64,000 nucleotides of DNA, taken from contig OY783219.1 in the NCBI GenBank assembly GCA_963678705.1, positions 9,238,001-9,302,000 on the forward strand, written 5' to 3'. Shown here piece by piece: positions 16,965 to 61,400 of the stretch. Origin of the DNA: Panorpa germanica (Eukaryota > Arthropoda > Insecta > Mecoptera > Panorpidae). The translations under genes were made by a program, and so were the position numbers. The notes beneath the pieces are model-generated. The model ran no database searches, was not told the DNA's origin, and saw nothing but the letters and a program-made list of their open reading frames with translations. Position 1 is the stretch's first letter, and the number at the start of each line of letters is the position of its first letter.

Positions 16965-19782
16965 TTATGATTGAATTTTGAATGGGAAGGTTCCTGCATC
17001 CATTTGATCTTGCCATTTTTGTATCCACTCATTTGGACAGATCGTTTCATAAACATGCCGGTAGTAGTGACATCTATAAACGTCGTCCCCAAGTTTGGCA
17101 GCACATCTGTGATAGTCCACGAACATGAAGAAACACTGTTTGGTCTGAAAAAAGTTTTTACACAAAAATCATAAAGAAGCACATCTTAGTTATTACTACC
17201 CTATTTCTGATATCTATATTAACGTGCTCGTGTCTTGTGTCGTCATTTTTTAGTGGTCGATTTTTCAATTGTTGATTGAAATTGATGTTAATAAATGTGT
17301 ATTGACGTGTCTATTTTATTAAATATCTAAATCTCGACGGAGATATAGTAATTAAAAATTTTAATTGTAGTTTTAGCGCTGGAAATGGTCGGCCATTTAT
17401 ATGACGTGAAATGCATTTTATACTTCAGTTATTTGTTGAGTAGGTCAGTGCTGTGGTAATGTTTTGTAGCTGTTGGTAGTCAAAATAATCAAGTCAAGTC
17501 AAAGAATAATAAGTTTTTATTTTATTTAACCCTGTTACGGCAGACATAATATTGAAATTTTATTGTTCCTTGAAATAGCTGTAAATAATATTTGATATTT
17601 TGATATATAAATACATATAGCTGAGATTTATGAGCTGTAAGGTTGGTAACCTGTAAACTTGTCAGAGTTCTGTTAAGAATATATCTCTTTTACGCTCTGT
17701 TGTATAAAAGAGATAGCAACTAGCGGTTCTGATGATGGAATGTTGTACAACGTCCAATCCCTTTAATAATTAAAGAGACAAAATTACTTTTTTAATTATT
17801 AATATCTCCTGAAATATAAGGAGTTATTAAAAAATAATTGAACATTTGAGGTTCTAGTAACCCACTTTATCAATATATAGTACACTTTTATAGAAATTAA
17901 GACATAGGACACAAGCCTATTCATTCGGTACTTCGAACACTGAATACTTGAAATTAAAAGGGAGGTACGAGATAGCTCATATTAGGCAACACTATTCACT
18001 ACTGTTTACAGGAAGATTATACAACTTCACATTGCATAAAAAGTAATCTAAGATTCTGTAAAGTATTACAATTTAAAATCTTATTTATTTACACATTTAA
18101 AATCATAAGAGTATCATTATTATACTTTATACATTTTTGGTAGGTTGACTTTTCGTCCTTAAAGAAACCTGACCTCCATGTATCTTACCCAATTTAAAAA
18201 TGACTTCACGACGGAACCCAGTTAACATTTTGGAGTAAATTCTATTTTATTTCTATTACATTTTTTTTCTCATGAACGAGTTTGTTTTCTATTTGTTAGC
18301 TACAGACGGCGCAACGAATAAAAGCGACTCCTGTAACAGGTAGGGAATCAATTTGAACTAAAATTGATTTTTTGTATGTTGCTCCAACTTGTAAAACGTT
18401 AGAATTGAAATGTACGACTGACTAGAACTTCACCTAGCCATTTTATTTCACCAAATGTTTACTGAGAAGGATCATACCTGATTAGCATTAGGATGTCTTG
18501 TTTCAAACGGTGCAGTGCCAGGCAAACCGTCCTTCTTACCAAACTCTCCGTGATGGTAATGGTTGAATCTGTGATTGATTGTAATATTTGCACTGGCGTT
18601 TAAAATAGCTTCGTCCGCAGCTTTTGATACCTCTGGTAAAGCACCCGGACCATCGTCGGCATCATCTTCATCAAAGAAATCATCTGCGTCTGCTTTACTC
18701 CATACATCTTGCGGCACTGCACCATGTCTGCGGAGTTGTGCCTTTTTCTCTTCTTCAGCTTTCTTTTTTTCATCTACTTCTTCACCTTCAGTCCCTTCTT
18801 CTTCTTCTTGATGTTCTATATGGTCATAATGATCTCCATGTTTTTTGCGTTTGCTATCCTTACATTCTTCTCCTTCTGTAGGTTCCTCACCTTCTTTACA
18901 TTCCTCACCTTCTTCCTCTTCCCCTTCTGCAGGAACCCTTATCCCATGATGTCCACCATGTATGACTTGAGGTTCTTGTTCTTCCTCCTCCCCTTCACCA
19001 GCTGCATCACCTTCAGCAGCATGTACAACGTAATCATTAAATGGTTTGTTAATGATGTTATCACAGAATACTGTTGAAAGCATCTGTCCTTTATCTTTAT
19101 CTTCATCATCACCCTCCGTGTCATCACCTTCAGCACTGTGAACATCGTATTCATCGAGTGGTTCTTTTATCTTAGTTGATTCAACATTTTCACAGTTTTT
19201 GATTGAAACCCTTCGACTGACATAATCATTCATTTCATTGTCAAACTGTGTGTAAATGTAACCATGAGGTGTAAAAACCTCTTGATGGTGTTCAGCAGCC
19301 TCTGGATCATTGTTGCTCTGCAATTTATTGTCCAAAAAGCGACACTCATGACCTTCATGTTGATTCAGTTCAATTGCATCAGCACTTTCATTTTTAGTTC
19401 CGAAATTTACGTACAATTCGTCATTAGTTTTAAAACTTTGTAATTCGGAATTATCAAAGTCACTCTCTTCCCATATATCATTCCCATGATCATCATGGTA
19501 GCGATTTTTTCGTTGTCCATGTTGGTTATGAGCAATATCTAATAGGTAATTTGCAAGATTTGTGTATTGATTATCAAACCAGTGTTTCAGATTTAGTGAT
19601 GTTCTCTCGTTACCAGACTCATATTTCTTCGAATTGTTAAGGAACAAGGCAGGATCGCTTCCCTGTTGCGTTATCCCTAATCGACAGTTGCTTGGTAAAA
19701 AATATTTCTGGGAGATATATCTTAAAACAGTTCTCACAAAAATATTACAAGTAGGTTCTGTATACGAATCACCTCTAGTCAT
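16965..19782 (-). CDS. COX6B paralog C with a ~420-residue acidic extension
   Basis: Two coding exons on the minus strand: 18478-19782 (435 codons) and 16965-17144 (59 codons plus stop), joined in phase 0 at CAG|GTATGA and TTTTTTCAG|ACC; predicted 494 aa. The last part is a normal COX6B: GLPGTAPFETRHPNANQ, then QCFFMFVDYHRC (CX9C) and CHYYRHVYETIC (CX10C), WIQKW and GTFPFKI. COX6B is a small (~80-95 aa) subunit of cytochrome c oxidase on the intermembrane-space side, bridging the dimer. The N-terminal extension is unlike any COX6B I know. It has a conserved head (EPTCNIFVRTVLRYISQKYF), a middle block (GHECRFLDN) and long Glu/Asp/Gly/His runs with an internal repeat (EYDVHSAEGD and DYVVHAAEGD). 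It could be a sex- or tissue-specific form, since duplicated COX subunits of flies are often testis-biased; that is inference. Confidence 0.85.
17224..17921. mobile_element. MITE with AATGGGCTTGTGTCCT ends, copy 3
   Basis: Nearly full-length copy, ending GGACACAAGCCTATT, in the single intron of COX6B paralog C. It carries the internal palindromic block around ATATCTCTTTTACGCTCTGT seen in other long copies. Confidence 0.75.
18217..18466. mobile_element. MITE with CCCAGTAAAC ends beside a splice donor
   Basis: Ends CCCAGTTAACATTTTGG and CCAAATGTTTACTGAG are inverted repeats. The interior matches the copy at 39265 in reverse. Its right end lies about 11 bp inside the intron from the donor of COX6B exon C (donor at 18477). 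Confidence 0.75.
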
Positions 19783-20044
19783 ACTATTTATTAAATATTC
19801 GAAAATTTAATTAATTTAGTTTTTTGAATTTTTATTGCATATTTCCATTTTACCTATTTTTATTGAAACAAATGTTTTACGATATCTTTTCATGGCTGCA
19901 TGGATTAAAAAAAATATATTGTTAAATAATGGTATAGTTTGTAGAATACTAGATTAGCTAGACTTGAAATTGTGTCCAAAATGTGTGCGAGAGAGAAAGG
20001 TATATGTTCCTATTTGTTCTCTATGCACATGCGTCGAAAGTAAA

Positions 20045-20205
20045 TGACCAACACTATCAGCACTTCCTTCTTCATCAAAGAATTAATCTGCTTCTTCCTT
20101 CATTATAGTACGACAGCAGAAAGCTTCTTGGTTTTCTTTCTTTTCATTACATTTCCCTACATTACGAACAGATTTTCCTCTATGATGTTCTCAATGGTGT
20201 TTTGG
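20045..20205 (-). pseudogene. Relic of a further COX6B-extension exon
   Basis: The minus-strand reading KEEAD*FFDEEGSADS resembles the KADADDFFDEDDADDG block of exon C and KADEDDFFDEDD of exon B. It is preceded by a His-rich piece (HH*EHHRGKS) as in exon B. Stop codons interrupt it and no start or splice sites remain. It lies between exons B and C, as expected for a decayed tandem copy. Confidence 0.55.
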
Positions 20206-20618
20206 AACTCCCAATGAAAATGAATTTTGGATTCCCCATTATTGGTAAATATACACAAGTAAGTCCTCAATACACACCCTAAATTTCATCCTTATATCTA
20301 TTCTAGTTGAGGAGAAAAGATATTTATAGCTTTCCTTAAATTTGGAAGTTGTTAAGGGCATACGACAACATCATGTTTCTCTTTTCATAGTCCTAAACAC
20401 CGTGCATTTAGAGACGCATGATACTGTCGGGACAACTTGACTTCCACTTTCGAGATAATTAATAAATTCACAGCAAAATAAGTAACAGAATTAATAAAAT
20501 GACGTGTAATAATTACATCTAGTGTAAATTCGAAAAATCTTGTAGTCGGCAAAAGAATAAACACGCTAGTAATAACTTATACTTCTATCAATATTTAAAA
20601 AAAATAACCCAAAAGTAT

Positions 20619-21253
20619 AATGGGCTTGTGTCCTATGTCTTAATTTCTATAAAAGCGTACTATATATTGAGATAAAGTTGGTTACTAGAACCTCAAATGT
20701 TCAATTATTTTTTAATAACTTCTTATATGTTAGGAGACAATAACAATTAAAAAATATCGTTTTGTCTCTTTAATTATTAAAGGGATTCAACGTTGTACAC
20801 ATTCCAAGTGCATGTGACATCACAATCCTTGTGTAAGGTTACCAACCTTACAGCTCATAAATCTCTGCTATATGTATTTATATATCAAATATTATTTACA
20901 GCTATTTTAAGGAACACTCAAATTCCTATATTATGTCTGCCTTAGTAGGGTTAAATAAAATAAAAACTTATTATTCTTTGACTTGACTTGATTATTTGAC
21001 TACCAACAGCTACAAAACATTACCACAGCACTGACCTACTCAACAAATAACTGACGTTAAAATGCATTTCACGTCATACAAATATGGCCGACCATTTCTA
21101 GCGCTAAAACTAAATTCAAACTTTTAATTGCTATATCTCCGTCAATATTTAGATATTTAATAAAATAGACACGTCAATACACATTTATTATAACTTCAAT
21201 CTCAATCAACAATTGAAAAATCGACCACTAAAAAATGAGTGCACAAGCCTATT
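20619..21253. mobile_element. MITE with AATGGGCTTGTGTCCT ends, copy 4
   Basis: Starts AATGGGCTTGTGTCCTATGT and ends GCACAAGCCTATT. A near-complete family member between COX6B exons B and C. Confidence 0.8.
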
Positions 21254-21529
21254 TTCAAGCCGTCACGAATATCAATTGCTCTTGCACTAGTAGTCGGCTG
21301 CAAGGCCCCTATTTTATAACTCTTTTCAACATCATTCAATATTAGACGGTACTATTTTGAGGTACAAAGTTGAGCTACTAACAACACCATCTAATCTTAA
21401 ATGGTCACAATAAAAGGGCCTAAGCCACAAAGCAAACAATATTGCTTGCAAATAAATTGTTATAGAAAGAGTTGAAAACTTTTTTTTAATAAAATTTAAT
21501 CCGCTAATATTATTTAACAAAAGCTGGAA

Positions 21530-21737
21530 CCCAGTAAACAATTTTGTGAAGTGTCCTTTTTTGTAACGTTTCTATCACTATTTAACTTCAATTATCAACT
21601 TTATCCGACAGGTGGAGTGGTTTCGCTATTTGTAGTCGATAAAATAGACATTTCATATGAACAACTGCAACTGCAAATGAACTCTTTCATGGCAAAAAAA
21701 GTCATGCACATCTTCAATATGATGGCGAAGTGATGTT
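21530..21737. mobile_element. MITE with CCCAGTAAAC ends, truncated copy
   Basis: The left end CCCAGTAAACAATTTTGTGA is intact. The interior matches the copies at 5412 and 39579, and the right inverted repeat is lost near 21737. It lies about 50 bp from the donor of COX6B exon B. Confidence 0.6.
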
Positions 21738-21791
21738 TTTGTAGAAAACCTTCTAACCGTATTAAATAGTATTAACAGATTGAATGTTTAC

Positions 21792-23153
21792 CTGATTAGC
21801 GTTGGGAAACCTGGTGTCAAACGGAGCAGTCCCAGGTAAACCATCCTTCTTACCAAACTCTCCGTGATGATAATGAGTAAATCTGTGTGCAATTTCAATA
21901 TCAGAATGAATTTGGTGTTTATGTTGGTGTGTTATAACATCTTCCGCTATTTCTGACACTTCTGGCATATCTGCGGCATCATCATCATTATCGTCTTCAT
22001 CAAAGAAATCATCCTCATCCGCTTTTTGCCATTCATCAACGTCCTCTACACCATGATGATGTAGTCCCCAATGTTCATCTTCCTCTTCTTCCTCACCTTC
22101 ACCACCTTCACCACCTTCTTCTCCATGATGCACTTCAATATGATGATGGGCGTGGTGTTCCCCAGGATGTTCGCCTTGGTGTGGAGCATGATGTCCATGG
22201 TATTCTTCTTCATGGTGTCCACCATGGTGTTCTTCATGGTGTTCTTCATGGTGCTCTCCATGGTGTTCTCCATGATGTCCTCCATGAAGTGATGGATCAT
22301 GATGTTCTATATGATCCACATGGTCTCCATGCTGCGCCTCCCCTTCTTCACCTTCTTCGCCTTCCTCATGCTCATCAGTGTGATGTCCAATATGTACGAC
22401 ATGATGCTCTTCCTCTTCCTCTTCTCCATCTCCCCCCTCACCTTCATCAGCATGAACAACATAATCATTGAATGCTCCGCTTTCTTTAATTGTTTCTTCA
22501 TTCTGGCAGTTCTTGATTGTAAGCGTTCTACTGTCATATTGATTCCTTTCATCATCGAATTCTGTATAAACGTAACGGTGACGAGTAAACACCTCTTGAG
22601 GTGCTTTAGGACCGCCACTGCTTTCCAATATATTGTCCAAAAAGCGACATTCATGACCTTGAAAATTAAGTCCTATGTTATCAGCACGCTTATCATTAGG
22701 TCCAAAATGTATGCTCAATTCGTCAGTGTTATTTCCAAGGATTTGAACGTCGGGACCATTTGTAGCGCTGTGACCTACTCTGTCGATATTCAGTCCCTTT
22801 CTACGAATACTCCTATCATCGCCATGATTCTCATGGTCCCGATTATTCCGATGACGATTTATATCATGAGCCATAATGAACTTATTATTTTCCTCTTCGT
22901 TAAATAGGTATTTAGCACGATCTACATATTGACTGCTACTTCCGCTGCTACTTTTCTTACGATCTATGCCATATCTACGTTTCTTCAGGTTGTTCAGGTA
23001 CAAGGTGGGATCACTCCCTGCTTGGGTTATTCCCAATCGACTATTGCTTGGTATAAAATATTCCTGCGAGATGTATTTAAGAACGAGTCTGACGAAGAAG
23101 TTACAAGTCGGTTCTGCAGACGAATCACCTTTCGTCATATTACTCGTTGTCAT
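21792..23153 (-). CDS. COX6B paralog B first exon, His/Glu-rich extension
   Basis: A 454-codon exon on the minus strand, starting at ATG 23153 and ending in phase 0 at CAG|GTAAAC. It ends FGKKDGLPGTAPFDTRFPNANQ, the COX6B N-terminal motif, so it needs a downstream CHCH exon. I find none between this exon and exon C, so the likeliest partner is the CHCH exon at 16965-17144. It would then share that exon with paralog C as an alternative first exon, giving 513 aa. The head (EPTCNFFVRLVLKYISQEYF) and GHECRFLDN block match exon C. The middle is extremely His- and Glu-rich (for example EHHEEHHGGHHEEEYHGHH), a composition that can bind divalent metals. Either a separate gene with an unseen second exon or an alternative first exon is possible. 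The start may be ATG 23153 or the in-frame ATG five codons later (MTKGDSS), which matches exon C better. Confidence 0.75.
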
Positions 23154-23699
23154 TTAATAAATCAGAAATACGGTAATTAGTAATAGTGATTGAAATATTT
23201 TTTTTTTATTTTTTTTTTTTTTCTATTACTTAAAATTTACATTTTAACTAACTGGAGGAAGTGCATTACGATAATTTTCCATAACTGATTGAAAAACAAA
23301 AAATATTAAGCAATGTACATCTCTTGGAATACTAGATTACACATTTTTTATAGTTATCGTTAAACACAGTATTTTTAAGAAAAATTCAGCGCATTTTAGA
23401 ACTGCAGTATTAAAAAAAATTTCATATACCGTTCATTGCAATACAAGTGCATTAATTCTTTTTAAAAGTCATTTGTGTATGCCCTTATATAAATGAAATC
23501 CACCGCTGCCTAAAATAAGCTTTCTGGTTTACAATAGTCTTTACTTTGTTTACATTAGTAACTTTGCACGCTGAAAAACCAATGCCGTGAAGCAAAGACA
23601 TGAACCAAAGACATGAATTTTCTTACCGTAAATAGATTTTAAATATAATTTTTAGACAAAATGTGTACAAAAGTAATTACAATTAATTATAAAAGTAAT

Positions 23700-23813
23700 A
23701 AGCGAGAAGAATGTTGTGCAGCTAATAAAGGGAGCCAGTGAGGGAAGAGTTGGATGGCGGAAATAGAGAAAAGGAACGACGAAAGAGAAGGAACACCAGA
23801 GCAGAAGTGATTT
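23700..23813 (+). mobile_element. LINE 3' tail fragment, copy 2
   Basis: A short purine-rich piece sharing GAGCCAGTGAGGGAAGAGTT- and GATGGCGGAAATAGAGAAAA-type sequence with the fragments at 9770 and 45240. It ends exactly where a small MITE begins at 23814. Confidence 0.5.
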
Positions 23814-23891
23814 CCCAGTAAACATTTTGGAGTCACTTTGTCACTAAAAACGTCACTAAATAGGGCAGTTCACCAAATTGTTTACTGGGTT
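23814..23891. mobile_element. 78-bp CCCAGTAAAC MITE
   Basis: Only about 78 bp between CCCAGTAAACATTTTGG and CCAAATTGTTTACTGGG, a minimal internally deleted family member. It lies between COX6B exon B and the CHCH exon of paralog A. Confidence 0.7.
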
Positions 23892-24186
23892 TAATCAGAA
23901 GAGATATCTAATAATAATCATCCTGTTTGTTACACAACTTTGCATTACTTCTTCTGTTTGATGAAAACACATTTGTTAAAATATTAAATTTCTCAACTTT
24001 TGTATAATTTTTAAAAATAACTAATCAGCACAATTCACTACGAAAATTTAATTCTAAATTATTTTTAAATATATTTTTCTTATTATTAATCATATTTTCT
24101 TAACTTTATATTTATTTTCAACAGAAATTTTGCAATATTTTTAAATTCGTATGTGAGTGTTGTTACTTTTTTATTTATTTTAAAAT

Positions 24187-27100
24187 TTATTTCCTATATA
24201 TTCTTGGTTCCAATTGTTCCCATTTCTTGGAACAATTGGATTCAATATGTTTGAAGAAATACCAAGGCGCCTGCCCGCCATCTGTTTTCTGGTAGCGATG
24301 AAAGTCAACAAGTCTCACATAAATATCGTTTATCTGGAAATAGAAATATTAAGAATCATTATTTTAATTATTAACATCTCCTATGACGTTGATACATATC
24401 CCAACTTTATCAATATTTCAATATTTTCAAGATTCATTATATAAACAAAATCTAGGTGAAACGATACTTGGCCATTTTTTCTAGCGAAATATAGATAGCG
24501 ATACTATACAGCAGGTTAAATATTATCAAAAAAACCATGTTTCTTTATGTTTAAATCGTTTTATGTAAGTAACTATAAACGCGAATAAAAATCCAAAGCT
24601 GCAATTAGTTAGATGAATAACGTATCTACATTTTAAGCTTTCTTCCACTGACTTTTAATGAGTTGGAACCGCAAAAATAAGTTTTGAAAATGAATATTGC
24701 AATATTTTCTAGTTAAATTCCAATATTAATTATATTTAACCTGCTGTATAGTATCGCCATCTATATTTCGCGAGAAAGAATGGCCAAGTATCGTTCTGCC
24801 TTAATATCTCCTAACACATTAGTACATACTAAAAAATAATAAGACCAAGTACCCAACTTTATCAATATATAATACACTTTGATAGAAATTAAGACATGAT
24901 TTCAAGCCTCATTACCTAAACAAAATCTAGTAATATTTATTCCAAAAAGATTCCAATTATGTCCCAAATCGATTATTTTATTACATTAATTCATTTCAAT
25001 ACTTTAACTACTGAAAAGATCTTCTTAAGAGTTGAATAACCCAAAAGAAGAATTTTTATGATTCTATTCATCTGAATGGACATTTACTGATGATTCTGAT
25101 AGCGGTAAACTAACGCTAATTAAAAACTGATGATTTTTCAGGATGAATATTGAATAAAATCTACATTCTTATACCCCCAATGCGCGTGTAAATGAACTTT
25201 AATTGTGCAATTCTTTTGATTTCATGAAAGAAATATTAATTCAACCAAATATAATACAATGACTAGTACTTTTAGGAAATTGTTTCTCATACCTGATTTT
25301 CCTTGGTAGAGTTGTACCCTTTTCCCGTTGTCTTCCATTGTGACGCATAATTTTTGCTTGATTCTATCGATGAATTACGAATATCATTTCCTGTAATAGT
25401 TTTCTCAATAATCTTTCTGTAGTTACTAATATTTAAATTTTTAATACTGTTATCTTGATCTTTCTTTATTTTATTTAGTTTTCCACATTGTCGTGTAGGT
25501 GGTTTAAAAACCTGAGTTTCAAATTCCTTGTTTGTATGCAGCTTACATTTTTTACGATTATTTCTTTTCTTTCTATTATGGGCATATTTGTTCTTTGCAC
25601 ATTCATAAGAACACTTTGAATCATTCTTTCTACCTACTATTTCCTTCTTGATCAAGGCTTCTGCTTTATCATTATCCATTTTACGTATTTCGTACTTCAA
25701 ATCATCTTTAACATCGCCCCACAGTCTCCTAGATTCCAAATCCTCCATTTTCTTCTTGTCGTCATAAAAGAAATATGTATTCACTTCTTCATCTTTAACA
25801 GTAGTTTCGTTGCTAAATTTGCTTACAGAAAGTGGCTTTCGCTCATAGTCTTCACGCTCTGAGTCATAAACTGGTCGTACTATTTTCTTATTTTCTCGAA
25901 ATTTCTTTTCAACAAACTGAGCAAAGTTATTATGTAATCTTCCTTTCAGACTTTTATCTACGCACTGTTTCAATTGGTTTAAATTTACAGGGTTTTCGAT
26001 TTCTGTAAATTCATAGGAACGGTTTCTTTTAGAAGAATCCCCCGAATCATCTTTGCTGCAATAAATCTTAAAGTATTCGTAGCCGTAAACATCGCCCCGC
26101 CTGTTATAGTCTAAGATAACGTTTGCTGCGCTTTTAAATCGCTTTGATTCTTCAGTTTCCCATGCATTATTTGCAAAAGCTTTCTCTTCATTTATACAAT
26201 CTTCACTACAAAATTTTCTATCCTTGTTTTCATCTTTATTCATTAATTCTTTATGTTCAACTTTTTTAATATTAATTTTGCTATATTTTTTAAAAGTTTT
26301 CGTACTTAGGTTTTTGTTTGTATCTTGACTTTCTTCTATTAAAGAACTGCATATGAAGTCTTTTTCTATTTCTATTAACTCTTTTTGAAATTTCTCATTA
26401 ACATTTATTTCTTTGGACGAGTTTTTTATGCCACAGTTAGAGTTTGACTCAATATTTTGTTTGTCAAGTTCATTATTTGGTGTTTTGAATGCAGTAATCC
26501 TTGAAGGATGGCGTCGTTTCCTTCTATGGTTTTTACTATTCCTAGAACTGGGGTATTCTACAAGAGCATCACTATTAATATTGTCACTACTTATACTCAG
26601 AATACTATTTTTTTCTTTGATTTCATAATTGTTACAGACTTCGCAAGAAGGGAATTCTTTTCTTAGCTTATCCTTCAACAAATCATGATTAGCCTGATGA
26701 TATTTTTTATTTCTTTTAAGGTAGTGAATTTCTCCATTATTTTCCTGCAAATTAAGAGAACTATTACGTTGACAATATTGATCATTATCTTTTCCTAAAA
26801 CATCAACAGCATTTTCAAGAATAATAGATGAGCTTCTGGTTAAATTTATGATATTCTGGTCTATTTCACGATATTCTTCACACACTTTGCTAAGATAACC
26901 ATCATCCAATCGTTCATCACCATCGCTATCATCTTCTGCAAGGCCGTATGTTCTAGGTTTTAACATATTATAAACTTTTGCGCGAGGTCTGCTATGTATT
27001 TTAAATTTGACACTAAATAACGGTTGCTTTATACTGCCAGAGTTCTGTTTACAATAAATAACTTTTACTGGCCGTGCCTTTAAATTATACGAATCACCGT

Positions 27101-27410
27101 CTTCCTTACTATAACATCTCCTCTTACTACGTGTAAGATCGATTACATTTTTATAAGCACCTCTTTCGATTATGTCTAATCTCTCCTCTGAACTATTTTG
27201 TCGTTTAACTTTGGCTGCATCTTCCGACTTTGCCTTTTCATCAGAATTTGAATTATTACCTCCACTTTCAGTAATCTGTACAAAATCTTCAGATATGTCA
27301 GGTGATTTATCAGTTTTCTTAGACTTAAATGAAAACCGTTGAGTTATAAATTTAAAGAATTTTGTAAGAAAACTTACTTGTGGTGTAGTATCTTCCATTT
27401 GTTCTTTCAT
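24187..27410 (-). CDS. COX6B paralog A with 706-codon extension and degenerate CHCH
   Basis: Two exons on the minus strand: 25293-27410 (706 codons) and 24187-24333 (48 codons plus stop), joined in phase 0 at CAG|GTATGA and TTTCCAG|ATA; predicted 754 aa. The second exon aligns with COX6B along INDIYVRLVDFHRYQKTDGG and WYFFKHIESNC, but the first three of the four CHCH cysteines are replaced (Ile, Tyr, Pro), leaving one. The extension is Lys/Asn/Ser-rich and mostly basic, without the His runs of exons B and C; its head (FLTKFFKFITQRFSFKS) is a distant match to theirs. The usual PGTAPFD motif before the junction is gone, though the exon still ends in Asn-Gln at the same intron position. Without disulfides it probably no longer folds as a true COX6B. 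The open 2.1-kb frame in AT-rich DNA argues it is under selection. Confidence 0.7.
24453..24803. mobile_element. Fold-back MITE, copy 2
   Basis: Left AGGTGAAACGATACTTGGCC and right inverted GGCCAAGTATCGTTCTGCC. It is clearly related to the copy at 10005 but internally shortened. It sits in the intron of COX6B paralog A. Confidence 0.8.
24830..24925. mobile_element. Fragment of AATGGGCTTGTGTCCT MITE
   Basis: Contains CCAACTTTATCAATATATAA and GAAATTAAGACATG followed by CAAGCCTCATT, the degraded right end of the family. It is immediately beside the fold-back element. Confidence 0.5.
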
Positions 27411-46491: not shown

Positions 46492-49400
46492 ATGAAGACT
46501 CTATTATTATTTCTACTAAATTTATTATTATTTTACTTTACTTTTGGTGAGGTCACGAAATCTAGTAGTGGTAAGTTTTTATTTTAATATGTTTCCCAAT
46601 ATTTGCCCATTCTTATGCGTCCACAAATTGGGACAAATTAAACGGTATTTAACTAAACTAAGTTTTTTCTTTTTTCATAATTAATTTATTTATATTGCGA
46701 TTACAATCGTATCTATTTATTATTTAAGAAGATAGTCCTGTCTTCAATTAGATTGGTCACTAGAAATATATTTGGATAGTTCACTACTCGGTCTTTGTAT
46801 TTAACTATTTTAGTATAACCATGGTGTAGTCTTTCGCTTGTAGTAAACTAAACTAACTAAATATTATACACTACATTCAGGACTACATTTTCGTGCAATT
46901 TGTTTTCTTTTCTTATGTTATCTTTCATTTAAATAATTTAAATACAATTTATATCCCAAAGATGTTTCAAAATGCAAATTCCACCATTCCAAAGATGGTT
47001 ATGCATACAAACAGTTCTACAAATTGGGAGAACTGAAAAATTCTAAAAAGGTAAACGCGAATGGGACCTACAATATAGTGGATATGCACTTTAAAGTTCA
47101 GGCCCCACGAGATGCTCATCTTCTGCTTTCTCAAAAAGAAAATGCTGCTGGAAAAGAGCCTGTTTATGAAATTGGTAAGACGAAAAGAATTTCTTATATA
47201 CATAATTTGACTTTAGTCATTGTATAAGGTGTACCAATAAGAACTGACTGTTTTGTTTATTGAATAACATGTAAAATTTTGAGAATATTTTAATTATTTT
47301 TTATTTGTTGTAAAGCTAAGAGATGGGAATTACTTTTGTAATAGATTAATTTGATAGATGACTATGTTTCCAATGACATTCTTTAATATTTTGAAGATGA
47401 AGCGTCGGATATAATATTTTAGCTCAGCAATCGTTGTGGAATTATAATCGTCCGCTAAACACAAAACATAAATATTACATTACATTTCTGTAATATCTTA
47501 CTAAAGCAAAACCTAGTAATATTTTGTTGTAAAATTGTGTCGTATTGTCGTTCTGGAGGAGATTACTCAGCTTACTAGTACATTCTGCAGGGATGCTAGC
47601 TTCTGGTAGTAGATTCTTCAGTTGACGACTTCCAACACCAATTACAGTAGTAATCGAATATCTTTCTTAAGATGATTAATAAGGATTCTTGTTCAGACGG
47701 TGTATTGTTGCAATTAGAGAATACTTGAGCGGTCTAAAGTAACCTCGTTGCGACATGCGACGGTTGAACAATTAGTATCTTTTTATTACTATTAATACAA
47801 ACACTTTTATTAAAATATATCATTTATTCGTTGTAATATTATATCTGCTTACTTAATTACAATAGTATTTTATTAGATTAACGAAGATGACAGATATAAA
47901 ACAAAATGTAATTCTATAGTGTTATAATTTAATTAATAGTTGAAATGTGCTCACTATTCAATACGTACGAAGTTGCGAATAGTAATGCTTGCTTTGAGAC
48001 TCAGGAGAAGACTGGCTTTCAGCGTCTTGTGCAATTTAATATATAATAATTTATTTCACATCACAGAACGCCAATACTGAATTACCAGCATTAAATCAAT
48101 ATTAATCTCCACAAACCAGAGACAATATTTATAAGCGCTAAACTTAAATAATTATTCTTTACAATCTTAATACTAATACAAAAACTGTTTACATAATATA
48201 ATTCTATTACATAATTAACATTTAATATTATTAAAAATAAAAGGTAAGTGCGACATATGCGTACTTACAACACTCCTCAACCAAAGAAAAGGAACGCATA
48301 TAAAACAAAACATATGCGTTTCTGCTCTAAGGAAAAGAAAAAGGAAAAAATTGTGATAGGGGAGATGTCGTACATATCACAACACCCCCTTTCAAAAAAA
48401 AAGGGACACGTATAAAAACAAAATATACGAGTTACAATTCTAGAAAAAAACAAAAAGAGAAGCAAAGTGTCGACAACGATTCTGATCCCATCGTATAGAG
48501 TTAACACTGCTCCACAAAACAATCATCCCTGACAAAATCCATTTCATTCGTCAAGTTTTTATTCATTGGTACAAAATCTCTTCAACCTATTATTATGAAC
48601 TACCGTATGTTTTTTACCAATTAGTATTTCTGTATTAACAGGGGATATAATTTTAGTAACTTTATACGGTCCTACGTATAAGGGTAAAAGTTTTTTTGAC
48701 TGTCCTTTAGTTGGTAACTGTTCATTTCTTAATAAAACTAGTTCGTTTACTTCAGGTGTGAAAAGAGAATTGACCCTTTTATCAAAATATAATTTTGTTT
48801 TTTCTTTGCTTTTAACCAAGTTATTTATAGCAAGTTCCCTCGCTACTTGTAACCTGTGTTTGAGTTCTACTATAAAATTATTATAAGTATTTACCTCAAT
48901 TGGTTCTTTATAAAAAATTGAAGGCAGATTTGCCTTATGTCCATAAATTAGTTCGAAAGGAGTAAAACCGGTCGCTGTATGCGGAGTTGTGTTATACACG
49001 AACATTGCATAGGGAATCCAATTTATCCAATCATCCTGCTTTTTACAAAAATTCCTTAGATACTCGGCAAGGGTTCTATGAACTCTTTCTAAGGCACCGT
49101 TGGTTGCTGGTCTAAATGCTGTTGTTTTTAATTGTTTAATTTTTAACAATTTGCATATATCTTTAAAAATTTTTGACATGAAATTTGTTCCTTGGTCTGT
49201 TAAGATCATATTAGGAACTCCGTACCTACAAATAACGTTAGTTACTAATGCTTTCGCGACAGTATTTGCCTCCTGGTTTATAATAGGAATAGCTTCCGTA
49301 AATTTAGTAAGGTCATCCTGTATTGTTAGTAAGTATTTGTATTTGTCGTTGTCGTCTTTCTTGGGAAGATATACTATGTCCAAAGCCAACCTTTCGAAAC

Positions 49401-52400
49401 TATGTTTCGAAGTCGATGTAATTGTTAATGGGCATTTATTTAATTTGCACACTTTATTCTTTTGACATGATACACATTGTCTAATAAAATTTTTAACTTT
49501 TCTAATCATACTTGGAAATTTAAAGTGTGATTTTAATCGTTTAATTGTTTTAGAAACTCCTAAGTGGCCTGCTGTGGGATTAACATGAAATTCCGAAATT
49601 ACATTGTTTATTAACTCAGGGTCACTAATTTTAAGTATATTGTCATTATAAATGTGTACTATTATATTTGTTTTATCAAAGATATGTCTGATCATAGTTC
49701 GTAACTGGGCAAAATCTAATTTACTTAGTTCAGACTCGAACCTGTTCATAGCTATGTTAGTAATTTTGTGTAAAGTACAAAAGTTTTTCAGATTCACTAA
49801 TGCCAAAAATATTTCTTTATAATTTGGTAGATTAAAATGAAATTCCTTAATTATTAAACAGATAATAAATCTAGTATCAATTTCAACATATGCAATTTCT
49901 GATACTTCTTTTTCTTGTATTAGAAATGCATTGATACTACTAAATTTATTGATTAATTCAGGAGAATTTCCAATTGAATTTTTAAAATCTTTTGATACAA
50001 AATCTACTAATGAAAATGACGTCGGTGCGTCATATAAACTTTTATCATGTTCAATTACTTTATTGTTTATGATAATTTTATTTTTAATTATTTCTAAATA
50101 ATTTTCGTATGTGACATCCATTGTTTCAACCTGAAGTGAGTATACGCGACTTAGGGCATCTACGTGTGGAATCGAACTACCTGGTCTATATATTACTTCG
50201 TAATTATATTCCTCTAGTTTTATCCGCCAACGCATAAGTCTAGAACTCGGGTCCTTAATACTCATTAACCAAGTCAAGGCTTGATGGTCTGTTACGATAC
50301 TAAAAAACTTTCCATAGAGATAGGGTCTAAAATGAGCCACAGCCCATACTACTGCTAATAACTCACGTTCAGTAGTTGTGTAATTTTGTTGTGCCTTATT
50401 TAGAGTTCTTGAAGCATATGCTATTGGGTGGCTTTCCTTAATAGTACCTTGTGAAAGGACTGCACCTATAGCATATTTACTTGCATCCGTGGTTACAACG
50501 AAATTTTTACTAAAGTCCGGGTATTGCAAAACAGGTGATATGGTTAATTTATTTTTTAAAGTTTTAAATGATTCGTCGCATTGGTCTGACCATTCTAATA
50601 CTTTAACATTACTGTTTGCTGCATTATATAGTGGTTTGGCTATCTCTGCGTAATGCGGTATATGTCGGCGATAATAACCAGACATACCCAAAAATGTTTT
50701 AATTTGTTTAGGACTGTTTGGAATGGGGAAATTCTTTATTGCTTCTACTTTAGAAGGATCTGGTAGAATACCTGTTTCATTAATAACGTGACCTAAATAA
50801 ATCAAATCTTTATGTAGAAAGTTACATTTGGATGGTTGGAGCTTCAAATTATGTTCCCGTAATTTAGAAAAAACGTTTTTTAATCTTTGGTTGTGCTCAG
50901 AAATGTTTTTTCCAAAAATGACTACATCGTCCAGATAGATTAAGCAATCTATTCCTTGCAAACCTGTGAGAACGTGAGACATAAGTCTCTGAAACATGGG
51001 GGGGGCTCCTTTAAGTCCGAATGGCATTCTTACAAATTGATAGTGTTTAAAGTTCGCACTAAATGCTGTTTTCTCTTTATCTTCGGGAAGCATAGGGACC
51101 TGGTGAAAACCGCTTGCTAAGTCAAGGGTAGAGAAAAATTTTGCACCACTAAGTTGGTCCAGTATATCATGTATAAGAGGCAAAGGATAGGCGTCACTTG
51201 TTGTCTGCTCGTTAAGTTTACGGAAATCGACTACTACGCGGAATTGTTTATTACCTAACGCATCTGGTTTTTTTGGTACTACTAATAAAGGTGCGTTATA
51301 GGGTGAGTCGCTTTCTTCAATTATGTTGTTGACCAACAGTTCCTGAATATGCTTTTCCACAATCTCTTTTTGCGCATGGGGCAATCGATACGGTTTAACG
51401 TTAACGGGTTTAGAAGAATTAATCTTTATCTTATGACTTAATGCGCTCGTACAAGATAACTTGTCTCCCGGTAAAAAAAATATGTCATTAAAGCTGTCAC
51501 AGATTTCTATTAATTCTGTTACTAATTCTGAATTGACATGTGAAAGATTTAAATTGTTTAATAAAAGTTCCTTACGGTTGTTAGGACTTGATTTTGAAAA
51601 ATGGTAAATACTAAATTGATCTATCGGTATGATATTCGGTTTGAAATTACTAAGTATTATATTTTTTATTGAAGAATTTATTATTGAAATATAGAAAATA
51701 TTTTTGACGGGCTTGATTAATGCATTAGCTAAAAAAACTTCAGGTAACAATTCCCTGGCTACACAAACTCCTACTGTAGAACCTGACATAGGAATTATCT
51801 TCCTCGTACGTGCTGGTAAAACGATATTGTTTATATTTATAAGTGGGAGCTCAATTACTTTGCCACATTCTGAGAATTGTACACTGTTCATTTTTAGATT
51901 AATTACTGCATTTAGTTTCCGTAAAATATCTAACCCTATAATTCCATCGTGTTTAATGGGGAAATTTTCTGACACAACCTGTAAAGTTTGTTTCGACTTA
52001 TTACTATCTAAAATTATAGAAGTTTTCAGTGAACCTAAGGTATAAGGCGTGCCTTCAGAAATACCCTTCAATAGAATTTTAGATTTATTATTAATTCTGA
52101 CATTGTTATTTAAAATATTTTGTTTAATCAAGGAGATTTGAGAACCAGTATCTAATAAAAATGATACGGTTTTAGCTTTGGCTGCGACCATCTTGAATTG
52201 GATAGTGTCAACTGTTTGCTTAGCCTTAACATTTTTATTTTTACTGACAAAACTTAGAATATCATTACTATTTTGTAAATTACCCGTATTGATCTCATCA
52301 AAATCATAAAAAAAACATAATTCATTATTTGAATTGTGTTGTGTCTTGTTAGTAAAAGATACTTGAGAACCATCAGATATAAGATGTTTCGATCTTTCAC

Positions 52401-55400
52401 AACAAGTAGAAGGTTCTGATAAAATTGTGGCCTCCCTACAAGTATTAACTTGAGCAATAGGGTTACCCGTATCTAGATTTTCCTTCTTAATAAAACAATA
52501 CTTTTCTGTATGACCACTTTTCTTACAATGGTTACAGAACAAATTTTTAGTTTTTGTTTCGACCTTATTAGGAATTTGCTTGCTTGAAACTGGTTTACTA
52601 TTAGAATTAGGAACGCTTGGATATGTTTTGACTTTAATATGCCTTCTTCTTTCTAGATTGCGCCACCGTCTCTCCAGAAACTCTGTAAATTCATTTAAGG
52701 TTGGTAATTCAGAATTATTTCTGTTTTCCCATTCCTTTGACGAATTAAAATCTAATTTGGTCTTTAAAATATGTATTAACATAAAATCTGAATGATTAGA
52801 ATATATCCCCAATTCGGTTAATGCTCTAATCGATTCATTAATTTCATCTAGTAGTTTTTTGATATTGATTTCGGACTCTAAACGTATAACATTGTAGTTT
52901 ATTAAATTGTTTAAACAGGTTTCAATAAGTGCTACCTTGTTATCATAACGTTTACAAAGGATGTTCCAAACAATTTCGTAATTATCATTTGTTAAAGGAT
53001 AATTCTTTATGAGTTTGAGTGGTTCTCCTGACAAATTTAACTTTAAATAATGCATTTTTTCAATGCTTGATAGTTTACTATTATTACGAATTAAATTTGT
53101 AAATAATTCCATAAAACTTTGCCAATTAATATATTCTCCATCAAAAACGGTTAGTTGCATTGGACTTAAGTTCAGATTTTTTATTGAATCTATACTTTTT
53201 GAGTCGTCTACAATATGTGTATCATTCTCAAATGTTTGCTTATAATTCAACAAGTAAATAAGAGTGTCGTCATAAATACTTTCAACTTCCATAGACTTAC
53301 TAACGATAGCCGAAGCTTCTTCATTTTTTAGAGTTGGAAGCAATGCTTCTACGATACTACTATATTTAACCCAAGCTTTGTCTAAGTTTTTGATTTTTAA
53401 TTCAACTATTGTTAAGGATGTTGATTGGACTTCTAGATTTTTTGAAAACTCATTAATTAGATTGATTGTATTCTCAACTAGTGTGAGTGAATGAACGTTC
53501 GGTGCCATAGTACTTAATTAAAGTTATATATAATATACAGACTAAAGATTATTTTGTACCAATAAACGACTCTCCGAAAAATAGGATTCTGACAAGGAAA
53601 AATTGTTAGCGAAAACAGTAACTCACTGGAAATTTCCGATGGGGCTCAGACACCGCAGTTGTAACAGGAAGGTAGTCTCTCTGATTGAACAGACTGCTAT
53701 CTAACTGCTTCAGCTCTTTACTTCTCCTTTTCAAAATTCTTTCTCGTTCATAAAGATGTTCTAAAAATATTAAACATGAATTAATATAATTGTAGAAACA
53801 ATTATAGGAAATATTATAGTAGATATTCAAAAGTATTGGATATAATACTAAAAATATTGAACAATGATGCTACAAAATTGTTATTTTATAACAAATATTC
53901 AAAAGTATTGAATATAATACTAAAAAATAATAGCTTCAATGAATTACAAGGATGCTACTAATAGATAGGTTATAGCAAATATTCAAAAGTATTGAATATA
54001 ATACTAAAAAAATAATAGCTTCAATGAATTACAAGGATGCTACTAATAGATAGGTTATAGCAAATATTCAAAAGTATTGAATATAATACTAAAAAAATAA
54101 TAGCTTCAATGAACTACAAGGATGCTACTAATAGAAAAAAATACAATTATCAATTTATGATAATAATTGTATACAAGATAAAAAGATACTGTCTTATTAT
54201 ACTTAACAAAAAAAACTTTCGATTTTGATCTATGTACAGCTGTGTGCAGGGTTCTGGAAACGATTAACATCAGTTTAGATTATTCCATTTGTTCTAGAAG
54301 CATCCATCCATTCGCTGGGGGCAAAAGATTTCTTTTTTTTTCTGGTTCAGCGGGCTGTTGTTTTACATCCACCGGACTTGTAGAAAAATTATGTGAAATA
54401 CAGATGAATTGACGTTCTATCTCGTACTCTTCGGCAATCTTGGAAATAATCGATCGACGTAGTGGTATCCAGAATAATTGATCTGCATCCAGGTGTAGAA
54501 TATATAGAAAAAAATTTTGGGCGTACCTCTTGGATATTTATGTGTAGGAATATCTCTTCGAGACCCCACCTGACACCAATGTTGTAAAATTGTGTCGTAT
54601 TGTCGTTCTGGAGGAGATTACTCAGCTTACTAGTACATTCTGCAGGGATGCTAGCTTCTGGTAGTAGATTCTTCAGTTGACGACTTCCAACACCAATTAC
54701 AGTAGTAATCGAATATCTTTCTTAAGATGATTAATAAGGATTCTTGTTCAGACGGTGTATTGTTGCAATTAGAGAATACTTGAGCGGTCTAAAGTAACCT
54801 CGTTGCGACATGCGACGGTTGAACAATTAGTATCTTTTTATTACTATTAATACAAACACTTTTATTAAAATATATCATTTATTCGTTGTAATATTATATC
54901 TGCTTACTTAATTACAATAGTATTTTATTAGATTAACGAAGATGACAGATATAAAACAAAATGTAATTCTATAGTGTTATAATTTAATTAATAGTTGAAA
55001 TGTGCTCACTATTCAATACGTACGAAGTTGCGAATAGTAATGCTTGCTTTGAGACTCAGGAGAAGACTGGCTTTCAGCGTCTTGTGCAATTTAATATATA
55101 ATAATTTATTTCACATCACAGAACGCCAATACTGAATTACCAGCATTAAATCAATATTAATCTCCACAAACCAGAGACAATATTTATAAGCGCTAAACTT
55201 AAATAATTATTCTTTACAATCTTAATACTAATACAAAAACTGTTTACATAATATAATTCTATTACATAATTAACATTTAATATTATTAAAAATAAAAGGT
55301 AAGTGCGACATATGCGTACTTACAACAATTTAAACGTTCTTATTCTAGAGCTAAGGGCATTTTAAGATGTTTTATGATTATCCTAATCAACAAAAAGGTG

Positions 55401-58400: not shown

Positions 58401-61400
58401 CCAACATGAACGTTGCACACTTAGCCGACTTATGACATTAAAATGCTCAGTATGAACGTATCAGAACGTTTATTACCCATAATTACCAAATTTTTCCAAG
58501 TATTTATGGTATAGTAAACAAGTACATCTTTATAACCTAACTTTTATTTTGCCATAAATGTATAAAATGTTGAATATTTATACCGTATTTTAAAAACAAG
58601 CAAAATCAGTACACAGTGTTAAACTGTTAACACGGCTTTTTGCTCGTTTCTAATATGCATCCGGGTTGAGAATCAAATGTATAAATATTATATTAATTTA
58701 ACTATATTTAGAAATTGATTTCTAGAAATGGATCGATTACAGTTTGAAGTGGAATGCGTCATCCTTTGAAAATACCACACACGTTCGATTCAACAAAAAG
58801 CAGATTTGGCAACCTAATGTAGTTCTTCAAAAGTAAGTACAACTTTTACTATAATTTCAATACAGTATATTCACTACCACGACTACTTGCGACATCTGTA
58901 TTTTTCAGTAGGGTATAGTCGCATTAGTACTCTTTATCATGAGAGAAAGTTTTTATTTTAATGTTTATCAATACACCACTGTATTAAAGAAGTGTGTATT
59001 TTATATGTCCGTATGATAACATAGTGGGTGAGAGCATGAATGCTTGACGTTGATTGCTGCGTCTTCGGGATCGATCTCCGGGTTAGAGTTATATTTTCTA
59101 AGTTTGGTTGTTATCAAGTTAAATTGTTTATGTACATACATAACCATAAACTTATCAGGCAGCGATGTAGTACACGTTTATGTTCCTTCATTTTATGTTG
59201 TATACAGTACATATTATATAATAACCGTATAAAGTGAAGGCGGCACTTTGATCTACATATGTAAACCATAAAATGAAGACGGACCCTTTATATGGGTATA
59301 CAATACATTTAATACAATAACCGTATAAAGTTAAGGTGGCACTTTGATCTACATATGTATGTAACATAAAATAAACACGGACGTATGAACTAAGGATTAT
59401 TTGACAACAGTGGTGTACTGATAAACATAAAAGTAGAAACTTTATCTCATGATAACCTGTATTAATGCGAAACAACTCTAATACACTCTACTCGTAAGTA
59501 GGCGCTTAAATTGTGAGAGTCCCTTATGGGGAAATCCCACCTATTGTTTTCGTTTTATTATTTAGCATCAGTAAATTACACTATTTTATAGTAATTATTA
59601 TCTTCAATCATTAGAGAAGGTTATATTTAATATAAATAATTTTATGTCTTTATATTTCACAAGCTGAGGTTAAGGTTAAAACGTAAAATATTTAAAAGTA
59701 AAACTTTCGAGATGTAGTAAAAAAGTGTAACTTTTTATTTTATTAAAGGCTCATTATTACTTTTATAATCATTGTGAATACTAATAGCGTATATTAATAA
59801 ATTAATCATTGCCAAATAAATTTTACACATACAAATGTCGTACTCGAACCAATGTTTTCATACGAGAGCGATAAAGCCCACATACCATAGCCACTGGACT
59901 ATTCGGACTCGGGAGAATATGTTGGAGATACGCATGCCACAGTCGATGTATCACGTATATCAGGTATCCGAGAATGTTTGGTGTTTGCATTAACAGATGG
60001 TGCGTGGGTGCTAAAAATACCGCGCGCATTTCAAATTGTTTAAAAAGTTGAAAGTCTGAAAGTTAATACTTTCTTTAATTATTATAAGCACTAATTTGTT
60101 TAAGCACGTTTTTTCATTGAGGAAATGTCAAATGTCAAACTTTTATTAATTATTTTTATATTTTTTTTAGTTCTGCATCGAGTCCAAATGAACCAATTCT
60201 CAGTATAAATCAAATATTGGTTCAAAGTTCTGGAGAAGTGATTTGGTATCCCCAAGCAAGTTTCCAAGTTTTATGCCCATTAAATTTTGGCCTAGTGGAT
60301 TGGCCCCGTGATTACCATGTCTGTGACGCCATTTTGTTAGTCTGGGGAAACGGAAATGCAGTTGATCTAGTTGCTGGAAAAGAATCTAGTGTAAGTACTT
60401 ATCATTTTGTTATAAATTTATCACAGTATACCTCATTATTTAAAACAGAATTCGTGGAAACTTTAATTTAACATAAATAAACATTTAGTGAAGTCGAACT
60501 CATATGGAATTCGTAATAAATTCTCAGTACGAACAAGAGTTCATATTGAATTTATTATTATTTCACAAAGAACTCTAGTTTCATTCTTGACACTATTTCT
60601 AATTTTTAATTTCTTTTTATATATATAAGACTCCAGTTCTATTATGTCTTTAGTTTTATTAGGAATTATAAATTTTAATTAAACTCATCTGTTGCATACA
60701 TATTTTAATAATTACATTGTTTAAATAATGCTACTACATAAATTAGCCAATATTAGAAATAAATAAGTTGTATACGAAAAGCGCGCAAAATTCAAAATTT
60801 CGAAGATTTTTTATTCAGACGTAGTTCTGTAAACAGGATTACAGTACAGTCTCTGGTTGGGATATCACAAGCACTTCGTTAATTGAAGAAAAATTTGAAG
60901 CCAGTCAAGGAACAACGCAAGGTCTTCGCCTAAGAATATCTCTCCAACGAAGGTCACGTTTGTACGAAGAAGTCTTTTATACAATATTTATTGGTAAGTA
61001 GAAACACTATCTAGACTTTCTGAAATTAATGGGCTTGTGTCCTCATTTCTTAGTGGTGGATTTTTCAATGTCCTACCTATTTTTCAGTGTACAACGTTGA
61101 ATCCCTTTAATAATTAAAGAGACAAAATGACTTTTTTAATTGTTAATATCTCTTAACATATAAGGAGTTATTAAAAATAATTGGACATTTGAGGTTCTAG
61201 TAACCAACTTTATCAGTATATAGTACACTTTTATAGAAATTAAGACGTAGGACACAAGCCCATTATTGTATTTTCATACTTAATTATTTTAGCAAGCGGA
61301 ATATTTTGCCTTCTTTCGTTGTGGTTAAACCAAGGAGTTCGCATTGTCCTTGTCTGCGGTAGTATTATTCTTCTATCTTTATCCATGGCTGTTCTCATTA

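Follow-up and report, generated by a model that had tools for sequence, protein, structure and literature searches.

COX6B with a very long first coding exon in Panorpa germanica: one well-supported paralog and a likely second

COX6B is a small, conserved subunit of complex IV, on the side that faces cytochrome c. Enlarged forms have been described: the long COX6b-1 of Arabidopsis comprises 191 residues, against 78 in the short forms, and is reported from the 300 kDa but not the 210 kDa complex IV (PMC5877523), and a COX6B with a calculated mass of 33.0 kDa is listed among the subunits that mass spectrometry identified in Euglena complex IV (PMC6018760). In Drosophila, many duplicates of nuclear mitochondrial genes are described as testis-biased, including COX4L (PMC8950493), which resembles the case presented here in that an insect has duplicated a gene for a subunit of complex IV, but the subunit is a different one. 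A further source places an extension on QCR6 rather than on COX6B (PMC12350165). The locus of Panorpa germanica described below resembles the plant gene in that COX6B carries a long N-terminal extension, a likeness of length and of the CHCH domain (the PDB chains set against the CHCH exon included 7jro_g, a plant long COX6B of 181 aa); the plant protein, however, has 191 residues in all, against about 494 and 513 predicted here. The Euglena protein, likened by size, is also much enlarged, but it is from a protist and is shorter than the cluster proteins. An earlier note on this DNA knew of no described family like this one, which is true in part: a long N-terminal extension of COX6B is already known as a principle from plants and Euglena, but for an animal the size of the extension, its sequence and the layout with a shared exon seem to be new. 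At title and abstract level, the literature on COX6B paralogs, N-terminal extensions, testis or sperm duplicates and alternative first exons yielded no such animal gene of this size.

The window, by which we mean the whole stretch of 64,000 nucleotides analysed (C16:9238001-9302000 of a 464-Mb assembly), carries three very long exons on its minus strand, in the region 27410-16965: exon A (25293..27410; 706 codons, from an ATG to CAG/GTATGA, the slash marking the exon boundary), exon B (21792..23153; 454 codons, ending GLPGTAPFDTRFPNANQ/GTAAAC) and exon C (18478..19782; 435 codons, ending GLPGTAPFETRHPNANQ/GTATGA). As the earlier note had it, all three end in phase 0 directly after Asn-Gln, each at a CAG/GT donor, and the codon counts agree. 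Such open frames are far from what the composition of the window would produce: among 60 simulated 64-kb sequences that kept its dinucleotide frequencies, the longest stop-free frame had a mean of 122 codons and reached 209 at most. Exons B and C are acidic, with net charges of -66 (B, which is His/Glu-rich) and -56 (C), and both carry a TAPFDPRFPNxNQ-like linker; ordinary arthropod COX6B shares this linker with them, and the four-cysteine CHCH domain with the CHCH exon that follows C. The motif GLPGTAPF, in which two of the exons were said to end, is standard in its TAPF part, but GLPG lies outside the motif in the eight COX6B sequences compared. The extension of exon A is basic (net charge +28) and contains 16 cysteines; the exon ends in STKENQ, without the linker, and a Pfam profile search gave no family above cut-off for it. 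Exon C also contains an internal duplication (19005-19053 and 19122-19170, minus strand, 76% identical) that matches 22436-22484 in exon B as well (76%). Elsewhere in the window lie minus-strand exons with MOSC_N and MOSC domains (873-2954), presumably as in the mitochondrial amidoxime-reducing component, a 1652-codon open frame (48562-53517, minus strand) whose polyprotein, of an LTR-type retroelement, comprises protease, reverse transcriptase, RNase H, integrase and DUF1759, and a plus-strand exon (60121-60468) for the ligand-binding domain of a neurotransmitter-gated ion channel; a search of the 64 kb against Rfam gave no match.

It had been proposed that a COX6B CHCH exon follows each long exon, and this describes C well, A only in degenerate form and B not recognisably. 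The intact CHCH exon (16965..17144, minus strand; 59 codons and a stop, phase 0, acceptor CTTTTTTCAG/ACC) lies directly 3' of exon C only. It matches PF02297 with an E-value of 3e-14 and has four cysteines in a Cx9C-Cx10C pattern; its acceptor is pyrimidine-rich, and its phase and sites agree with the donors of A, B and C. After exon A, an exon at 24187..24333 (minus strand; 48 codons and a stop, phase 0) retains one of the four CHCH cysteines. It has no Pfam match at E-values up to 1, but its COX6B origin can still be recognised: it aligns to the canonical COX6B of this genome (L001) with a score of 59 that none of 5000 shuffles equalled; 12/5000 shuffles did as well against the CHCH exon of the window and 6/5000 against L003, a further COX6B paralog. 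Between B and C, tblastn with three queries recognised no CHCH exon. A stretch at 20494..20559 (minus strand; FADY...RCNYY) sits about where the intron length of exon C would put such a remnant. When the CHCH exon of the window served as query, matches as good turned up in 27 of 300 simulated regions and in 16 of 1000 simulated local stretches; with L003 they did so in 151/300 and 59/1000, L001 matched elsewhere, and the DNA alignment was not significant (99/1000 with soft scores, 168/1000 with hard scores). We regard this stretch as suggestive and do not claim it as a remnant of the CHCH exon of B. A repeat that resembles a mobile element, about 630-690 bases long and with CTTGTGTC-like ends, occurs in opposite orientations in the intron of exon C (17234-17921) and after exon B (20619-21247), with a partial relative in the intron of exon A (24818-24897).

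The relationship of B to C is clear. Over 370 aligned codons the two are 57% identical, and the regions upstream of them are related as well (score 55, equalled by 0/1000 shuffles), so that the two exons plus some upstream sequence are, on their alignment, tandem duplicates. Similarity fades past the donors: 15 of the first 40 intron bases match, and the 5' intron parts have only a 21-base local match in common (35/1000 shuffles as good). Differences per codon position are 0.27, 0.23 and 0.42, highest at the third position, and the NG86 estimates (dN 0.29, dS 1.12, dN/dS about 0.26) indicate purifying selection on the pair, as a single pairwise comparison that says nothing on which branch was constrained. 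The first 53 codons of C, compared with their counterpart in B, give dN 0.15 and dS 1.19, and the constraint is strongest in the last 32 codons before the CHCH fold, which correspond to the COX6B linker (dN 0.054, dS 1.066). In simulations of neutral change, B acquired a mean of 3.7 stops at 0.05 substitutions per site (8/300 runs stop-free) and of 7.0 at 0.1 (0/300), whereas the real exon has none. B and C therefore look like two coding exons kept by selection, and the open frame of B together with its constrained linker indicates that B was, until recently at least, a coding exon with a COX6B linker, though one with no recognisable CHCH exon. One could also suppose that the long exons are open by chance, or are pseudogenes, and that only inspection by eye has linked them to a COX6B exon. 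The degenerate CHCH exon of A and the missing one of B speak for this idea, but with frames far longer than any simulated, dN/dS near 0.26 overall and a linker dN of 0.05, we consider it highly improbable.

We favour a model, with a probability of roughly 55%, of a cluster of duplicated COX6B genes in which the CHCH domain lies in a 3' exon and one very long 5' exon replaces the short N-terminus, B and C being alternative first exons onto a shared CHCH exon. The features above give good support to C as a COX6B paralog whose N-terminal part is encoded by one very long exon, and B is likely such a paralog too, through the selection on its COX6B linker. The CHCH exon of B would have been lost or never copied, and B would be spliced over C to the exon at 17144-16965; because B has no recognisable CHCH exon and is kept as a coding exon with its linker, sharing is the simplest arrangement that we can infer. 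The related upstream regions suggest in addition that each exon could have its own promoter. Counting against sharing, the splice from B would have to span about 4.6 kb and pass over exon C. Alternatively, only C makes the CHCH fusion and no exon is shared, B being a truncated or separate gene, or one that is starting to decay or is spliced to an unrelated exon: no intact CHCH exon is recognised between B and C, the frame past the donor of B stops at the tenth codon (a 463-codon frame), and the loss of its CHCH exon could be recent, with B now dying. We think this unlikely, as B retains both linker and donor, and its last 32 codons show 10 synonymous differences from those of C but only 3 that change the amino acid.

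Exon A is a different matter. Its extension gives one local blastp match to that of B/C (pairwise E-value 4.5e-4), hhalign assigns a probability of 0.6% (E-value 0.094), and the resemblance between the N-termini falls short of significance (428/5000 and 235/5000 shuffles as good). We do not claim homology of the extensions; given this weak and mixed relation, A is treated as at most a diverged member of the cluster, by its last exon only, and its role as a COX6B has probably been lost. The proposal that 370-700 residues were added to a respiratory subunit consequently fares well for C and, via the linker, is likely for B, but it does not extend to A, which is diverged and whose CHCH exon has decayed.

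PF02297 occurs at six places in the assembly (L001-L006): the canonical COX6B (L001), the paralog L003 (C16:5787594, on the contig of the window), which has an acidic N-terminal exon, the CHCH exon of the window (L005), a weaker place (L006) and two (L002 and L004) that by eye we take to resemble COA6. L001 is an ordinary COX6B, 79% identical to the 90-aa COX6B1 of Zophobas morio; it has 24 residues through the NQ junction, compared with 435 and 454 in C and B, and no intron there. L003 shares with the cluster an intron at the same place (junction NANQ/TK), the motif FMF[IV]DYHRC, FPF near the end and an acidic N-terminus, but it has only about 60 N-terminal residues (from an inferred start Met) against 435 and 454. 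It is possibly an intermediate state. Its acidic stretch itself, with the TAPY..NQ motif removed, is not significantly similar to the B/C extension (121/2000 and 136/2000 shuffles as good), too often for homology to be claimed. In a FastTree phylogeny of 35 sequences (30 chosen among the best 120 of 230 L001 homologs, four sequences of this genome and human COX6B1), the CHCH domain of the cluster is sister to L003 with weak support (0.81), apart from L001, and the degenerate exon of A falls at the base of cluster plus L003 (0.80) on a very long branch. Together, cluster and L003 group with honey bee COX6B (0.84) and not with L001, which may be a long-branch effect. The long branch of the CHCH domain bears on another possibility, that the product of the long exons and the CHCH exon no longer belongs to complex IV; it could, for instance, be a structural protein of the intermembrane space or of sperm in which the CHCH fold serves for import and retention only. 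The domain ends in FPFKI, against FPGRI in L001, an ordinary COX6B persists in the genome, and the CHCH copy of A is without three of its four cysteines, yet its 706-codon exon is still open. But the shared exon keeps all four cysteines in Cx9C-Cx10C and scores 53.3 bits for PF02297 against a curated cut-off of 26, and we judge a place outside complex IV somewhat unlikely.

How far the family reaches beyond this genome was addressed by searching 5.8 billion proteins. The joined protein of C and the CHCH exon had no match at E-values up to 0.001 among the 8000 candidates to which scoring was limited, nor did the first 240 residues of B at E-values up to 1 (520 candidates scored), in a search that needs shared 5-residue words and similar length and would miss shorter or more diverged extension relatives. 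As a control, L001 retrieved 230 proteins from the same collection, and many of the best 120 of these 230 are named arthropod COX6B. Within this genome, the extension of B was found at B and C only (two candidates scored). The description of the family as lineage-specific fits these two protein searches with the extension, which gave no relative although the collection is rich in arthropod COX6B; A would be at most a diverged member.

What would such proteins look like? The predicted products have about 494 residues (C) and about 513 (B), and would consist of an N-terminal block, an acidic arm (His-rich in B) and then a standard Cx9C-Cx10C domain. A helix in the N-terminal block is possible, in an AlphaFold model of the B extension that was built on the two-row B/C alignment and is very poor (mean pLDDT 32.7). 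By analogy with ordinary COX6B, the CHCH domain would be imported and folded by the disulfide relay of the intermembrane space. The long protein would dock on complex IV, either next to the ordinary COX6B or replacing it, with its acidic arm reaching out into the intermembrane space; the charge of the arm could attract basic proteins, for instance cytochrome c, or hold adjacent complexes together. A fuller scheme is distinctly doubtful: in it, two giant alternative first exons and one CHCH exon give two 6B versions with acidic arms of 430-450 residues, and in a specialised mitochondrion, for example in sperm, these arms hold on to cytochrome c or link complexes. Its sperm component is a guess, by analogy with the general testis bias of many Drosophila mitochondrial-gene duplicates.

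If the favoured model is true, an animal lineage has extended a respiratory subunit by an arm that is under selection, is about five times as long as the subunit itself and is swapped by the choice of first exon. Panorpa would then offer a natural test of what is tolerated at the intermembrane-space face of complex IV, and of how tissue-specific respiratory complexes originate.
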